IMG/VR virus record: IMGVR_UViG_3300008262_000741
Coordinates: 1 to 39,345 of that record
Source: a virus
Direction: 5' to 3' (one strand)
DNA: 39,345 nt
Below the pieces are notes generated by a model that made no database searches, was not told where the DNA came from, and saw only the letters and a program-made list of their open reading frames with translations. Positions 7,912 through 39,213 of this stretch are shown in pieces. Numbering within the stretch: the stretch's first letter is position 1; each line of letters starts with the position of its first letter. The position numbers and the translations under genes are program-made.

Positions 7912-8415
7912 TCACCCCCACATTTCTCTGAGTTGATTTACTACAGAATCGAGCGAGATGCCAGTACTCTTTGCAGCATAGATTGTAGAGACAAGCATAC
8001 TTTCCACATCATCACCAAGCATACCCATACTACGGTTACAATTATCACACAACCAACCGCGTTGAACGAGAGTTTTGTGGCAGTGATCAAACACCAACGC
8101 TGCTGTATCTGGGTCGTTCTTTTTAGGACCAGGATCACAACCACAACGGTCACAGCAAGTGCCGAGGGCAGGAGTCTTGGGTTTACCAGCAAGTTTAAAA
8201 GCTTTTGCCTTGCCCTGATTCATCTTCTTATTACAATCGCGGCAATCTGTTCTCAGATAGATCACCCTAGCGTTGGTGTTAGTAGAAGTATTCAAAGCAA
8301 AATGCTCAAGAGTATAAGGAAACACTACCTTACACTTAATACAAGCTTGGGTTTCCTTATGATAAGGTTTACCTTGCAGATGATCGGGAAGTGTGTAGGT
8401 CTTAGACTTAGGCAT
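7912..8415 (-). CDS. Recombination endonuclease VII-like HNH protein
   Basis: 167 residues from the ATG at 8413-8415 (MPKSKTYTLPDHLQ); the ATG at 8448 lies upstream of the predicted transcription start and is not used. The C-terminal module FDHCHKTLVQRGWLCDNCNR (D110-H111, H113, C123-x-x-C126), with earlier Cys (C87, C88 and C91), matches the His-Cys metal finger of T4 endonuclease VII (Pfam PF02945). An extra N-terminal zinc-binding pair is visible (C25-x-x-C28 and C58-x-x-C61). Free-standing members of this family in phages are often homing-type nucleases; true endonuclease VII resolves DNA branches during packaging. The gene has its own promoter, is preceded by a terminator and followed by a hairpin, which fits a self-contained inserted cassette. 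Confidence 0.8.
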   Translation of the reverse strand: MPKSKTYTLPDHLQGKPYHKETQACIKCKVVFPYTLEHFALNTSTNTNARVIYLRTDCRDCNKKMNQGKAKAFKLAGKPKTPALGTCCDRCGCDPGPKKNDPDTAALVFDHCHKTLVQRGWLCDNCNRSMGMLGDDVESMLVSTIYAAKSTGISLDSVVNQLREMWG

Positions 8416-8438: not shown

Positions 8439-8467
8439 AGTATGACACAAAAAAGGGGTGCCGTCAA
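8439..8467 (-). promoter_or_regulatory. Sigma-70-like promoter, TTGACG-17-CATACT
   Basis: -35 TTGACG (8462-8467) and -10 CATACT (8439-8444), spacer 17. The -35 is exactly the loop of the terminator hairpin 8449-8474, and the T-run lies in the spacer. Start of transcription near 8431 fixes the endonuclease start at 8415. Confidence 0.6.
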
Positions 8468-8474
8468 GCACCCC
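8449..8474 (-). terminator. Rho-independent terminator
   Basis: On the minus strand: stem GGGGTGC, loop TTGACG, stem GCACCCC, then TTTTTT. It ends the helicase operon (last gene stops at 8539). A second hairpin, CCCCG-TCTT-CGGGG (8495-8508), precedes it without a T-run. Confidence 0.8.
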
Positions 8475-8538
8475 CAAACCAGTCCGTCAACTGTCCCCGA
8501 AGACGGGGTGGATCTCAGTTTTTACATGCTCTGTCATG

Positions 8539-8808
8539 TTAACATGCTGCTCCCACAAGATCGCATCCTCTAGATTGTAGAAAATAGCTTGTTGTTTGCT
8601 TTTCTTGTTCTTCTTGCCCTTCATCCACACAACTGCGTACTTCATTCCAATACTCATGATAAACTACAAGATTTGATTGATAACGTCCAATACGCTTGGA
8701 CTTGTCTGGTTCATCCATGAAACAGATCGTTATGTAATCGTCGTCAATAAAGTTGACCCATCCTTTGGTCTGACGATACTCTACCATCGTACCATACTTG
8801 AAAGTCAT
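8539..8808 (-). CDS. Hypothetical protein with SH3-like N-terminus
   Basis: 89 residues, MTFKYGTMVEYRQTKGWVNF. The first 55 residues look like a small beta-barrel (GTMVEYRQTKGWVNFIDDDY, ITICFMDEPDKS), a layout common in phage proteins that regulate or bind translation and RNA factors; this is a resemblance only. The C-terminal part is charged (DEGQEEQEKQ). Starts as TGATG in the stop of the upstream gene. Last gene of the helicase operon. Confidence 0.65.
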   Translation of the reverse strand: MTFKYGTMVEYRQTKGWVNFIDDDYITICFMDEPDKSKRIGRYQSNLVVYHEYWNEVRSCVDEGQEEQEKQTTSYFLQSRGCDLVGAAC

Positions 8809-9664: not shown

Positions 9665-10912
9665 TCAACCAATCAGGGACTGACCCTTGACAAAGATGGT
9701 ATCTACAACCGCTTGCAGGCGCTTCTCAGTCTGCTTACCATAGTTGGTGAAGACAGGCACAGTCACGAAACCTGTACGCTTGCGGTACATCTCTAGTTTG
9801 CCAGGAACGATCTTACCAGACTGAATATCAGCGGCATCACGCTTGTCCAGACGGATCACACGACCGATGGTTTGCGCCATCTCAATCACAGGCAGATTGC
9901 GAAGGAGAATGGTGTGGGTGAGACCAGGCACGTTGATACCTTCAGACAAAATGCTGTAGTGGAACATGATAAACTTACGGCTGGGATCTTGACCCCAGGC
10001 AGTCAGAGTGTCAAAGAACACTTCACGACCCACTTTCTGTTTGTTGATGTAAGCACCATGCTTGCTGGTGATGTGGAGCACATCATAACCACGCTCAGCA
10101 AACTCTGCCATCACGTTGGTTTGAGACAGTAGCGCCCACAGCACACGAGTGTTAGGAGCAGCAACCAGGATTTTCTGAGCGGAATCAGAATCAAGTTTGC
10201 CAACAATATCCATCAGAACCTCGCGGTCATTCTCTGCAGCAAGCAGAGACTTGTTACGCTCAAAGTCAACAACATGAGCTTGAACAGTAGGAGGAATGAT
10301 GCTACCGTTGTTAATCAGTTCAGGAGCAGGCACAGAGATCAACTCCTTGCCATACACATCAGTATTGTGCATACTGATGTTGCCACCACGATACTTAGGA
10401 GTAGCGGTGAAATAGTATGCGTTCTTGGCAGTCGTCAGAGTAGCAGCAGCAACTTCCATGTAGAAGTCACGACGCACAGAGTTGTGCGCCTCATCGTAAT
10501 AGATGGTATCCACATCAATACCTGCCTCGTTGATGCGACGCAGAGAATTATAGGTGGTGAAGATCAGTTGGTGAGTGTTAGCTGCCTTGCACACAGCAGC
10601 GTGGCAACTGATTTCATCGATCTTGGTGGTGCTGTTGCCCACAACCTCACCGCTGTGAACGTGGAGAACACAGGCGTCAACCTTGCCGTTCAGTTCTGCC
10701 CAGAACTCTTCATAGAGTTGGACCGAAAGCAGGATGCGAGGAGAGACCACCACGATCGTCTGAGGGGTCTCTGCTGCCTGCAGGCGACGCAGACAGTCAA
10801 GGATCATCACAAGGGTCTTGCCGCCGCCTGTGGGGCAGGTGACGCGACCGATAGCAGCAGTCAGCAGAGCATCGAGCATACGCTGCTGGTGAGGGCGAAG
10901 GGTGAGGGTCAT
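9665..10912 (-). CDS. SF2 DNA helicase (DEAH, ResIII/UvsW-like)
   Basis: 415 residues from the ATG at 10910-10912 (MTLTLRPHQQRMLDALLTAA); the longer frame to 11014 crosses a terminator and a promoter and is rejected. Motifs: Q-like RPHQQ at 6-10; Walker A CPTGGGKT (26-33); Walker B DEAH (140-143); motif III FTATP (168-172); motif VI QTIGRVIRLDKR in the C-terminal third. This is the two-RecA-domain ATP-driven translocase layout of the type III restriction Res subunit/UvsW class. T4 UvsW unwinds branched DNA and R-loops and switches origin-dependent to recombination-dependent replication; whether this is the functional equivalent is uncertain. Heads a six-gene operon ending at the 8449-8474 terminator. 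Confidence 0.85.
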   Translation of the reverse strand: MTLTLRPHQQRMLDALLTAAIGRVTCPTGGGKTLVMILDCLRRLQAAETPQTIVVVSPRILLSVQLYEEFWAELNGKVDACVLHVHSGEVVGNSTTKIDEISCHAAVCKAANTHQLIFTTYNSLRRINEAGIDVDTIYYDEAHNSVRRDFYMEVAAATLTTAKNAYYFTATPKYRGGNISMHNTDVYGKELISVPAPELINNGSIIPPTVQAHVVDFERNKSLLAAENDREVLMDIVGKLDSDSAQKILVAAPNTRVLWALLSQTNVMAEFAERGYDVLHITSKHGAYINKQKVGREVFFDTLTAWGQDPSRKFIMFHYSILSEGINVPGLTHTILLRNLPVIEMAQTIGRVIRLDKRDAADIQSGKIVPGKLEMYRKRTGFVTVPVFTNYGKQTEKRLQAVVDTIFVKGQSLIG

Positions 10913-10934: not shown

Positions 10935-10940
10935 AGTATA
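10935..10940 (-). promoter_or_regulatory. Candidate promoter (-10 TATACT) for the helicase operon
   Basis: Minus-strand context CATGCCCTATACTTATTTC, directly downstream of the terminator 10948-10969. The expected -35 position (17 bases upstream) falls on the terminator loop, CCAGTG, which is a poor -35. Shares the GCCCTATA(A/C)T context with 965 and 6725. Confidence 0.5.
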
Positions 10941-10947
10941 GGGCATG

Positions 10948-10969
10948 AAAAAGGGGGCACTGGGCCCCC
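10948..10969 (-). terminator. Rho-independent terminator of the ParB-like gene
   Basis: Minus strand: stem GGGGGC, loop CCAGT, stem GCCCCC, then TTTTT. It lies 22 bases after the stop of the ParB-like gene at 10992. Confidence 0.85.
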
Positions 10970-10991: not shown

Positions 10992-12011
10992 TCAGTATTT
11001 GCAAACAGGAACAAGTTTACGAGACTTCAAATCATGTGAACCGTAGATTTGAGGAATGGCACCAAGAACAACATAAGGGCGTTCATTCGGAACTTCAAGT
11101 TTGATACCGCTCAGCGCATTATTCACCATGGTATATGATGCTGCGTAGAAGTATTCCAATTGAGTAACAAAAACTTTGAGTTTCTTTCGTGCTTTTTCGG
11201 GAACAGTTTCGTTTGTATAAAGAACTAGTTCGATGGGATCATCACATTTCGAGATAGCAGGGAGGATATGTTGACACCAAGCACGATAGTAATAGGTGTC
11301 GCTGTCAACTGACATCAAAAAGCGTTTCTTACCATCAATCTTCAGGTTACGCTTTTCACACCACTGTTCCCATTTTTCACGACTTTGACGATAAACCAGA
11401 GGGTCACCTCCGTTAGCGCCAGTAGCAAGAATCTCATCAATAATCTTAGTGATTACTCCACCGCGCTCACTAAACATTTTAGTGATTTCAAGTTCATTAT
11501 ATAACCAATCTTCAACAGAGCTCTTATCACAGTTAAGTTCACCCTCGGAAATAAGATAAAGAGCCGAAGTAACAACGTTAGAGGTCTTTACAGAAACTGA
11601 AGGTGGGTGCTCTCCGTTTGCTTTCAATCCGTTCGTGATATAGTTACGGGCACTATCATCAGAATAAGAATAGACAGAAATAGGAATAAAGCGTTCGCCA
11701 TTACGTTTTGCAGCAATAATGCGACCACGACCATCACGCGGGCGTCCATCAGTTCCATAGATGGGAGGCCAAAATCCAGTCAGAAATCCGTGGTTTTCGA
11801 AGTGAGTTTGCTGCGCTTCGATACGCTCATCAGTTTTTTCATCACGAATAGCAAGGTTCCAATAATCTTCATCATCCTCGTCTACTGTATAGAGATCAAG
11901 AAAATCGAAGTGAAGAAACTTACCATTCAGTTGTTTGGCAGGTTCAAGTGTTTTAAAATCATCGAGATTGATAACACCGATACCATTAAATCCAGGTTTT
12001 GTTTTAGACAT
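10992..12011 (-). CDS. ParB-like nuclease-domain protein
   Basis: 339 residues. The motif DGRPRDGRGRIIAAKRNGER (88-107), followed by IPISVYSYSD, is the G-R-x-R-x-x-A-A-x-R ... I-P-V core of the ParB/sulfiredoxin fold, preceded by the helix-plus-loop NHGFLTGFWPPIYG where ParB proteins place the box that binds CTP in true ParB. The C-terminal two thirds (helical, with HILPAISKCDDPIELVLYTN) is not recognisable. No ParA gene is in the window, so plasmid-type partitioning is unlikely; stand-alone ParB-like proteins in phages and mobile elements include nucleases and DNA-modification partners. Single-gene unit with its own promoter (12074-12102) and terminator (10948-10969). Confidence 0.75.
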   Translation of the reverse strand: MSKTKPGFNGIGVINLDDFKTLEPAKQLNGKFLHFDFLDLYTVDEDDEDYWNLAIRDEKTDERIEAQQTHFENHGFLTGFWPPIYGTDGRPRDGRGRIIAAKRNGERFIPISVYSYSDDSARNYITNGLKANGEHPPSVSVKTSNVVTSALYLISEGELNCDKSSVEDWLYNELEITKMFSERGGVITKIIDEILATGANGGDPLVYRQSREKWEQWCEKRNLKIDGKKRFLMSVDSDTYYYRAWCQHILPAISKCDDPIELVLYTNETVPEKARKKLKVFVTQLEYFYAASYTMVNNALSGIKLEVPNERPYVVLGAIPQIYGSHDLKSRKLVPVCKY

Positions 12012-12073: not shown

Positions 12074-12102
12074 AGAATAACACGGGTTTGGGGACGTGTC
12101 AA
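12074..12102 (-). promoter_or_regulatory. Sigma-70-like promoter, TTGACA-17-TATTCT
   Basis: Perfect -35 TTGACA (12097-12102), spacer 17, -10 TATTCT (12074-12079). The -35 lies between GGGG (12103-12106) and CCCC (12090-12093), so it could sit in a small hairpin loop. It serves the ParB-like gene starting at 12011. Confidence 0.7.
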
Positions 12103-37906: not shown

Positions 37907-37922
37907 ATTTTTTGTGCGAAAA

Positions 37923-37996
37923 CACTCTCTCTAGGATTCGAACCTAGGACACCTTGATCCGTAGTCAAGTGCTCTATTCCGCTGAGCTAAGAGAGT
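37923..37996 (-). tRNA. tRNA-Arg(ACG)
   Basis: Acceptor ACTCTCT/AGAGAGT, D-stem GCTC/GAGC, anticodon stem CTTGA/TCAAG with loop CTACGGA, T-arm CTAGG-TTCGAAT-CCTAG, discriminator G. No CCA encoded. A34 would need deamination to inosine by host TadA. Last of the array, three bases after tRNA-Trp. Confidence 0.95.
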
Positions 37997-37999
37997 AGG

Positions 38000-38071
38000 C
38001 GAAGGGCCAGAGACTTGAACTCTGAACTTTGGTTTTGGAGACCAAGATGTTACCAATTACACCAACCCGAC
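38000..38071 (-). tRNA. tRNA-Trp(CCA), imperfect acceptor stem
   Basis: Anticodon stem TTGGT/ACCAA with loop CTCCAAA, T-arm CAGAG-TTCAAGT-CTCTG, D-stem GTGT/ACAT, discriminator G73 as usual for Trp. The acceptor GTCGGGT/GCCCTTC pairs at 1 and 4-7 but not at 2-71 (T/T) and 3-70 (C/T). Three bases to the next tRNA (Arg). Confidence 0.85.
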
Positions 38072-38074
38072 AGG

Positions 38075-38146
38075 TTCTGAGGGTAGGATTCGAACCCACG
38101 AATGGCGGGACCAAAACCCGCTGCCTTACCGCTTGGCGACCTCAGA
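38075..38146 (-). tRNA. tRNA-Gln(TTG)
   Basis: Acceptor TCTGAGG/CCTCAGA, D-region CGCCAAGCGGTAAGGC as in bacterial Gln tRNA, anticodon stem GCGGG/CCCGC with loop TTTTGGT, T-arm GTGGG-TTCGAAT-CCTAC. Reads CAA and, by wobble, CAG. Confidence 0.95.
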
Positions 38147-38150
38147 GTGG

Positions 38151-38221
38151 GGTGTCGTATGGGAATTGAACCCATCTAGGTAGTTCCACAAACTACTGCC
38201 TTACCACTAGGCTAACGACAC
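38151..38221 (-). tRNA. tRNA-His(GTG), without encoded G-1
   Basis: Acceptor GTGTCGT/ACGACAC, anticodon stem GTAGT/ACTAC with loop TTGTGGA, T-arm ATGGG-TTCAATT-CCCAT, C73. Position -1 is T, not the G that bacterial tRNA-His normally has. CCA follows C73 in the genome (38148-38150). Only one base separates it from tRNA-Met upstream. Confidence 0.9.
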
Positions 38222-38222
38222 A

Positions 38223-38296
38223 TAGCAGTAGGTGGATTTGAACCACCGACCATAGGAATATGAGACCCGTGCTCTGCCAGACTGAGCTATACTGCT
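38223..38296 (-). tRNA. tRNA with CAT anticodon (elongator Met or Ile2)
   Basis: Acceptor AGCAGTA/TACTGCT perfect, D-stem GCTC/GAGC, T-arm GGTGG-TTCAAAT-CCACC, loop CTCATAT. A1-T72 excludes an initiator tRNA. The anticodon stem CGGGT/TCCTA has only three pairs (28-30). Met or lysidine-modified Ile cannot be told apart by eye. Confidence 0.8.
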
Positions 38297-38300
38297 GAGG

Positions 38301-38389
38301 CGGAAGTGGTTGGATTTGAACCAACGGATGCCCCTAAAGACATCGACGGTTTAGCAAACCGCTGCATTAAGCCGCTCTGCCACACTTCC
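38301..38389 (-). tRNA. tRNA-Ser(GCT)
   Basis: Class II tRNA of 89 bases with a long variable arm, acceptor GGAAGTG/CACTTCC, anticodon loop TTGCTAA (GCT), T-arm GTTGG-TTCAAAT-CCAAC, discriminator G73 as expected for Ser. Reads AGC/AGT. Confidence 0.95.
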
Positions 38390-38392
38390 AAG

Positions 38393-38464
38393 TGGAACCG
38401 ACAAGATTTGAACTTGTGACCGCTCGGTTATCAGCCGAGTGCTCTACCGCTGAGCTACGGTTCC
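38393..38464 (-). tRNA. tRNA-Ile(GAT)
   Basis: Acceptor GGAACCG/CGGTTCC, D-stem GCTC/GAGC, anticodon stem CTCGG/CCGAG with loop CTGATAA, T-arm ACAAG-TTCAAAT-CTTGT, A73. All stems perfect. Confidence 0.95.
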
Positions 38465-38468
38465 AAGG

Positions 38469-38541
38469 CCGAGGAAGGTAGAATTGAACTACCGACACCA
38501 TGTTCTTCAGACATGTGCTCTACCAACTGAGCTATTCCCCG
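38469..38541 (-). tRNA. tRNA-Phe(GAA), unusual acceptor end
   Basis: Anticodon stem CATGT/ACATG with loop CTGAAGA, D-stem GCTC/GAGC, T-arm GGTAG-TTCAATT-CTACC. The acceptor is CGGGGAA/TTCCTCG, so C1-G72 with G73, whereas Phe tRNAs normally have G1-C72 and A73. Confidence 0.9.
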
Positions 38542-38544
38542 AGG

Positions 38545-38616
38545 TATTCCTAACGGGATTCGAACCCGTGCTGCCACCTTGAAAGGGTGGTGACCTAACC
38601 GCTAGTCGATAGGAAC
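38545..38616 (-). tRNA. tRNA-Glu(TTC)
   Basis: Acceptor GTTCCTA/TAGGAAT (G1-T72 wobble), anticodon stem CCACC/GGTGG with loop CTTTCAA, T-arm ACGGG-TTCGAAT-CCCGT, A73. First tRNA after the 198-base insert. Confidence 0.95.
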
Positions 38617-38814
38617 ATGGAGGGAGGGGTATCCCACACGAAGTCACTTATGGATTACGCTTCGTAGCCTTATGAATCCTGCCATCATCCGATGGTGGTT
38701 AGAATGTCTTTCCCCAATTCCAGTTCTTGCTACGCCATTCCTTACCTAACTGGCAACATTCAGGATGACGTGCTACAACCGCCAAGGAGGGACACTCCAT
38801 CGGCAGCGTAGCAA
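38617..38814 (-). other. 198-base insert in the tRNA array
   Basis: No tRNA T-arm or other tRNA hallmark. Contains a perfect 9-bp inverted repeat, TTGCTACGC on the minus strand at 38806-38814 and GCGTAGCAA at 38727-38735, about 70 bases apart, plus smaller hairpins (CCATC/GATGG; GGATT/AATCC with an inner TACG/CGTA). Could be a structured RNA processed with the tRNAs, or a remnant of lost tRNAs. Confidence 0.4.
38699..38800 (-). CDS. Possible 33-residue ORF inside the tRNA array
   Basis: MECPSLAVVARHPECCQLGK, then EWRSKNWNWGKTF. Three Cys and three Trp in 33 residues. ATG at 38798-38800, no clear ribosome binding site. Lies within the 198-base insert between tRNA-Asp and tRNA-Glu and between the arms of the 9-bp inverted repeat. 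Could equally be RNA structure. Confidence 0.3.
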   Translation of the reverse strand: MECPSLAVVARHPECCQLGKEWRSKNWNWGKTF

Positions 38815-38888
38815 CGACCCATACGGGATTCGAACCCGTGATCTCCACCGTGACAGGGTGGCGTGATAAGCCGCTACACTAATGGGTC
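38815..38888 (-). tRNA. tRNA-Asp(GTC)
   Basis: Acceptor GACCCAT/ATGGGTC, anticodon stem CCACC/GGTGG with loop CTGTCAC, T-arm ACGGG-TTCGAAT-CCCGT, discriminator G73 as expected for Asp. Four bases after tRNA-Tyr. Confidence 0.95.
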
Positions 38889-38892
38889 AAGG

Positions 38893-38974
38893 TGGGAGGA
38901 ACAGGATTCGAACCTGTGAAGGCAGAGCCGTCTGATTTACAGTCAGATTCCTTTAACCACTCGGAAATCCTCCC
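38893..38974 (-). tRNA. tRNA-Tyr(GTA)
   Basis: Class II tRNA of 82 bases with a variable arm, acceptor GGGAGGA/TCCTCCC, anticodon stem TCTGA/TCAGA with loop CTGTAAA, T-arm ACAGG-TTCGAAT-CCTGT, A73. Confidence 0.95.
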
Positions 38975-39013
38975 AGAACAGTTTATGTTTAAAGACCGAA
39001 CTGTGGCGGTCTA

Positions 39014-39086
39014 TGGGTCTGGTCGGGCTCGAACCGACGACTTACAGGTTAAAAGCCCGCTACTCTACCAACTGAGTTACAGACCC
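39014..39086 (-). tRNA. tRNA-Lys(TTT)
   Basis: Acceptor GGGTCTG/CAGACCC, anticodon stem GCGGG/CCTGT with loop CTTTTAA, T-arm GTCGG-TTCGAGC-CCGAC, A73. First tRNA of the transcript; a 39-base spacer with an AGACCG/CGGTCT hairpin follows before tRNA-Tyr. Confidence 0.95.
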
Positions 39087-39142
39087 AAGGGTTAAATTGT
39101 CAAGGTGCTGGTCGGGGTGGATCCCCTTCCGTCGATGGATGT

Positions 39143-39171
39143 ATCATAGCAAAAGGGGGGCGGTTTTGCAA
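39143..39171 (-). promoter_or_regulatory. Sigma-70-like promoter of the tRNA array, TTGCAA-17-TATGAT
   Basis: -35 TTGCAA (39166-39171), spacer exactly 17, -10 TATGAT (39143-39148), about 60 bases before tRNA-Lys. The -35 is at the tip of the terminator hairpin and the T-run lies in the spacer. Confidence 0.65.
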
Positions 39172-39181
39172 CCTGCCCCCC
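39151..39181 (-). terminator. Rho-independent terminator
   Basis: Minus strand: GGGGGGC, a bulged A, GGTT, loop GCAA, AACC, GCCCCCC, then TTTT. A very stable hairpin that ends the 33-residue ORF transcript. Confidence 0.85.
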
Positions 39182-39213
39182 TGATGAATCTTGCTTATGT
39201 GTCGGATGTTAGT

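Follow-up and report, generated by a model that had tools for sequence, protein, structure and literature searches.

A candidate terminator-promoter composite of T4-like cyanophages in which the hairpin loop carries the -35 hexamer

Described terminators, promoters and their proximity

Intrinsic (rho-independent) terminators consist of a GC stem with a short loop and a run of 5–6 T, directly after a stop codon, and bacterial sigma-70 promoters with an extended -10 combine a TTGACA-like -35, a 17-bp spacer and TGnTATAAT. The composite elements described here resemble both. They are unlike an ordinary intrinsic terminator in that the loop is fixed as TTGAC(A/G) and belongs to the next promoter, and unlike an ordinary sigma-70 promoter in that a hairpin loop contains the -35 and the stem arm and T-run together form the spacer. 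A hairpin is also part of the promoters of the N4 virion RNA polymerase, where it is extruded from the DNA near -12 and read by the phage polymerase, whereas the composites carry sigma-70 elements and have their hairpin centred on the -35 hexamer.

Terminators and promoters lie close together in E. coli and B. subtilis, and bacterial RNA polymerase that has terminated at an intrinsic site can stay bound to the DNA and start again close by (PMC6978380, PMC6978322, PMC11347151). A promoter near a terminator permits reinitiation there, and the likeness to the composites is one of proximity; distances were measured up to ~1000 bp in these bacteria, whereas in the phage composites terminator and promoter share the same bases. 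The Kayvirus early promoter p98 was mapped immediately behind terminator t97, through which late transcripts read; the adjacency is alike, and no -35 in a loop is described in the portion of that paper considered here (PMC7698491). A comparative cyanophage study predicted sigma-70 early promoters and terminators by separate programs, and the part of its text considered here does not report an overlap of the two (PMC3037559). A limited search of the open-access literature found no description of a -35 within a terminator loop and, the search being of this limited kind, novelty of the element is provisional.

Candidate elements in the window

The window, meaning the whole stretch of 39,345 bases that was analysed, is a fragment of a T4-like cyanophage, with S-WAM2 and S-H9-1 (family Kyanoviridae) as the closest records. 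All main genes and 12 tRNA genes are on the minus strand, as are all features described below. Element 1 (8475–8439) is located between a 56 aa gene of unknown function (phrog_13220, 8487–8657), with 11 nt between its stop codon and the hairpin, and an endonuclease VII-like gene (7912–8415; phrog_2633, E 1.2e-13), whose ATG at 8415 is ~17 nt past the predicted start site (~8432). From 8480 to 8439 the sequence reads GGTTT-GGGGGTGC-TTGACG-GCACCCC-TTTTTT-GTGT-CATACT. The hairpin GGGGGTGC-TTGACG-GCACCCC (8455–8475; -16.3 kcal/mol, z -3.6) is followed by the T6 run of the putative intrinsic terminator (8449–8454), which falls within the promoter spacer. Folding gave a loop that is either exactly TTGACG (8462–8467), the -35 hexamer, or a UGAC tetraloop closed by a T.G pair. 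The -10 hexamer CATACT (8439–8444) follows at a spacer of 17 and is preceded by TGT (extended -10), and the promoter scored 9/12, with extended -10.

A first-pass annotation of this DNA had described three terminators in which a -10 at a fixed spacer of 17 placed the -35 on the hairpin loop, and all its coordinates and hexamers were correct when rechecked on the sequence. The geometry with the loop as -35 is real for element 1 and holds for element 3 as a weaker example; for element 2 it was abandoned, the loop there drifting in orthologs.

Element 2 comprises the terminator hairpin GGGGGC-CCAGT-GCCCCC (10953–10969; -12.9 kcal/mol), then T5, then TATACT (10935–10940), the -10 hexamer of a DNA helicase gene (9665–10911, ATG at 10911; phrog_16, E 1.6e-64). 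Across ~75 orthologous helicase loci the loops were CCAGT, TTCG, GCAA, CCCGT, TCTGT, ACCAC and others, with TTGCA in only a few, and the hairpin and TATACT/TATAAT were retained in most loci. This free variation ruled out CCAGTG as a -35; only the hairpin and the -10 persist, and element 2 appears to be a terminator with a promoter that apparently lacks a -35.

Element 3, upstream of the cluster of 12 tRNA genes (37922–39087), has a hairpin with a GCAA-capped apex (39155–39182; -23 kcal/mol), a partly conserved -35-like TTGCAA at the apex (4/6; 39166–39171), a T4 run (39151–39154) and, at spacer 17, the -10 TATGAT with TGC before it (39143–39148). A TTGxxA apex was present in 4/5 orthologs, with differing -10s; one had no hexamer and three had TTGACA with a poorer -10.

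The promoter at 12102–12074 (TTGACA-17-TATTCT) has its -35 between GGGG and CCCC without a T-run, as the annotation had stated. The four G-C pairs around TTGACA form a weak hairpin (z 0, equal to shuffles), and because it also lacks a T-run the site was rejected as a terminator. It is similar to variants of element 1 without a T-run, such as that of locus L170. The 339-aa protein encoded between this promoter and element 2 (10992–12011) matched no PHROG family at E 0.001.

The pattern GGGG-(0-3)-TTGAC-(1-4)-CCCCTTTT had one match in the window against 0/100 shuffles, and any such composite was present in only 1/200 Markov shuffles of the window. A simple promoter scan and a terminator scan of the window gave match numbers at chance level and so could not decide the matter. 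Since the window count is a single observation, related genomes were examined.

Related loci retain the phrog_13220 gene and have the element directly behind it. These orthologs of element 1 keep TTGAC and the -10 despite differing stems and differing downstream genes; in some of them the T-run, the -35 or the hairpin has been lost, so that no single part is indispensable. The downstream genes at this site vary among phages, and none of the related loci compared contained a match to the window's endonuclease VII-like gene. The boundary looks as if it were an insertion-tolerant slot.

Terminators and adjoining promoters in related genomes

Nine cyanophage genomes (S-WAM2, Syn9, S-PM2, S-H9-1, S-RSM4, S-RIM32, ACG-2014h, S-CRM01 and P-SSM2) were scanned together with T4 and S-TIM5, and to these were added 240 loci from IMG/VR that surround three conserved genes (2.37 Mb). 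An earlier loose terminator scan, in which TTGAC enrichment was borderline (5/66 vs 8/282, P 0.08), had picked up false hairpins within genes that diluted the signal, and it was replaced by a strict scan that called a perfect stem of at least 6 with at most one G-T pair and a T-run; thresholds for hairpins and promoters were chosen in this analysis. The strict scan called 149 terminators across the nine genomes, most of them on the coding strand, compared with 9 in shuffles. Inclusion of the IMG/VR loci raised the number to 535, which clustering of similar copies brought down to 254; clustering lowers but does not eliminate relatedness. UUCG and GNRA loops were common among the Kyanoviridae terminators.

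Promoter elements adjoin these terminators in general. A -10 (at least 5/6) was found at +8 to +14 of the stem end in 68 clustered terminators, where the rate at positions further downstream predicts 14.1 (P 5e-25); T4 had no clear excess, with a -10 behind 2/22 terminators against 1.6 expected. T4-type late promoters (TATAAATA/CTAAATA) lay within 25 nt behind Kyanoviridae terminators in 18 cases, with 0.7 expected. They were seen at L034, L046, L049, L055, L067, L069, L041, L101, L104 and other terminators, and were sometimes fused with the T-run. A composite near the PhoH gene (L311) reads AGGGGGTTGACAAACCCCCT TTTTCTGTGCTATAAATAGTA, and its -10 region also reads as the late promoter TATAAATA; it is possibly both early and late.

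A -35-like hexamer stood 16–18 bases before the -10, almost always at the apex, in 44 of the 254 clustered terminators (17%); the spacer was exactly 17 in 35 of these composites and TG preceded the -10 in 30. Of the 86 terminators that have a strict -10, 20 had a -35 matching at least 5/6 of TTGACA at spacer 17, and 0–3 had one at each of the spacers 8–16 and 18–28. For a permutation control, each hairpin was re-paired with a downstream flank taken from another terminator, which keeps loop and flank composition and breaks their relation. Strong pairs at spacer 17 numbered 30, compared with 3.6 ± 1.7 after permutation (maximum 8 in 300 permutations), and at spacers 13–15 there were 0 against 5.7 expected. 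Hexamers at the 16–18 bp distance of a sigma-70 promoter are thus placed above chance, and the suspicion that the geometry would be no commoner in related genomes than in shuffled sequence was not borne out. The geometry that the annotation had called constant does recur, as a subclass of the terminators and not at every terminator-promoter junction; composites made up 7/357 of the consensus-like promoters with spacer 17 across 12 genome sets.

IMG/VR was then scanned as a whole for terminators with a TTGAC loop, the -10 being left unspecified. Among the matches listed, the -10 (at least 5/6) stood at exactly 17 in 56 of 117 distinct terminators (48%) and at 18 in 16/117. The permuted control loop TTCAG had a -10 at 17 in 1/64 terminators among the matches listed. 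TTGAC outside hairpins on the same contigs had a -10 at 17 in 6.3% of cases, again among the matches listed (Fisher P 5e-32 for the TTGAC-loop enrichment), so the enrichment does not merely reflect that TTGAC is commonly a -35. Three contigs were checked, of which two match cyanophages (S-SRM01 and S-SKS1; S-PRM1) and the third matches T4-like phages of Methylophilales and Pelagibacter.

Scans of SPO1, JG024, Ma-LMM01, P-SSP7, HTVC008M and T4 found no related forms, and KVP40 and phiM12 had a few, with TTGAC in the stem or apex. Three loci of KVP40 (L760, L761 and L762) carry the near-identical GGGTTGACnnnnGTCARCCC TTTCTTGTATTAT, whose stem arm contains TTGAC and whose -10 follows at spacer 18. 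Three similar hairpins of phiM12 (L777, L780 and L783), AATTCCC.GTTGACA..GGGAATT TTTCTATGTT, have TTGACA across the apex. In P-SSM2 near 48630 (L037) the sequence CCCTTGACAT-ATT-ATGTCAGGGG TTTTATAAT contains a perfect TTGACA-17-TATAAT whose -35 is in the 5' stem arm, not the loop. A scan of bacterial genomes gave a -10 at 17 in 12/98 matches, chiefly with short tails of four T, and no claim is therefore made for bacteria.

Conservation, rival readings and proposed mechanism

The element was present behind hsp20 in 78/80 loci. Across 43 distinct sequences of this site TTGAC, the 17-base spacer, TG, TA...T and the T-run core were all invariant; the search demanded TTG, and the invariance is free evidence for AC and the remaining positions only. 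The stems vary (GGGGAC/GTCCCC, GGGTGC/GCACCC, AGGCAC/GTGCCT), and in 38 sequences 99.7% of stem cells were paired, with 27 double-sided changes against 6.8 in shuffled and 0–6 in slid controls. Pairing kept by compensatory changes is a property of intrinsic terminators, and conserved hexamers and spacing, seen here and in the orthologs of element 1, are a property of sigma-70 promoters. As a terminator needs no fixed loop and a promoter needs no covarying stem, both hairpin and promoter are under selection and conserved at the hsp20 site.

The consensus of the composites is approximately GGGG-n-n-TTGAC(A/G)-n-CCCC-TTTTT-nTGn-TATAAT, in which a GC-rich stem-loop precedes a T-run, as in intrinsic terminators. 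Of 198 distinct composites, 189 are preceded by a co-directional stop codon, a median of 10 nt before the stem, as is also expected of terminators, and 187 are followed by a start codon, a median of 16 nt past the predicted start site. This position supports the earlier suggestion of one modular element that closes one unit and opens the next.

Three other readings were weighed against a fused element. Under compactness alone, the promoter would lie directly behind the terminator, TTGAC would be in the loop at a distance of 17 by accident and the overlap would be unselected. The general adjacency of terminators and promoters, late ones included, is what such packing predicts, and adjoining sites without a -35 exist too, as at the helicase gene. 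It is nevertheless improbable and was already disfavoured, since a second permutation tally gave 38 observed pairs against 9.3 permuted at spacer 17 and 1 against 20 at spacers 13–15, TTGAC loops predict a -10 far better than the control loop among the matches listed, and the loop is invariant at the hsp20 site and free at the helicase site. The reverse reduction, to terminators alone, would make TTGAC a favoured loop and the -10-like hexamers chance occurrences in AT-rich leaders. Some loop preference does exist, given the common UUCG and GNRA loops, but the near absence of a strong -10 at 17 behind the control loop, the invariance of TG and TA...T in orthologs and the absence of the arrangement from T4 and SPO1 terminators leave this reading the least credible of the three.

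The GC inverted repeat could instead be a DNA operator, bound by a repressor or activator, or a structure of promoter DNA, without any termination. Covarying stem pairs would be expected of a DNA palindrome as well, and versions without a T-run occur (L170 and the window promoter at 12102). Against it stand the almost universal T-run of 5–6 (positions 13–17 >0.9 T), the location of the elements 10 nt behind stop codons, stems that vary from site to site, unlike a fixed operator, and ordinary UUCG-loop terminators at the same sites in other phages; we regard a promoter-only function as improbable to the same degree as compactness alone.

From the observed anatomy, enrichment, covariation and gene context, element 1 and, weakly, element 3 very probably belong to a recurrent class of fused terminator-promoter elements in T4-like cyanophages and relatives. 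Termination, initiation and any coupling of the two are predicted from sequence features, by which ~45 bases appear to act as stop sign and start sign together. At the RNA level, the GC hairpin and T-run would act as an intrinsic terminator and close the upstream unit ~10 nt past its stop codon; at the DNA level, this stretch would be a promoter for host sigma-70. The loop would supply the -35 (TTGAC followed by A or G), its first T pairing with its last base so that a UGAC tetraloop remains, the 3' stem arm and T-run would make up most of the 17-bp spacer, and TGnTAnnnT would be the extended -10, with the next gene beginning ~16 nt past the predicted start site. Because the loop is the sole sequence-free part of the hairpin and lies at the -35 distance, selection could put a -35 there without harming termination.

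A transcription-unit boundary would in this way be compressed into ~75 bases. The main benefit may be insulation and independent initiation within minimal intergenic space, and an additional effect may be that RNA polymerase pauses and releases its RNA atop the next promoter. Regulatory coupling of hairpin and promoter, which the annotation had suggested as a possibility, is plausible. T4-like cyanophages rely on host RNA polymerase, so a handover of this enzyme would be possible in them. We consider it a tentative and rather unlikely extension that polymerase terminating in the T-run is released onto the next -35/-10 and reinitiates without leaving the DNA, and that a readthrough or paused polymerase occludes the promoter.

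Usually seen as filler, the loop of a terminator can double as promoter sequence and be conserved in that role. For engineering, the composite may offer a terminator-promoter part that is natural and very short. In the open literature searched there was little mapping of transcript start or end sites for cyanophages, and the pattern offers a simple rule for locating transcription-unit boundaries in these phages. With termination and initiation predicted on the same bases, recycling of RNA polymerase becomes directly testable in a natural system. If such a relay were true, neighbouring phage units would be coupled in time by a ~45-base device across the T4-like cyanophages.
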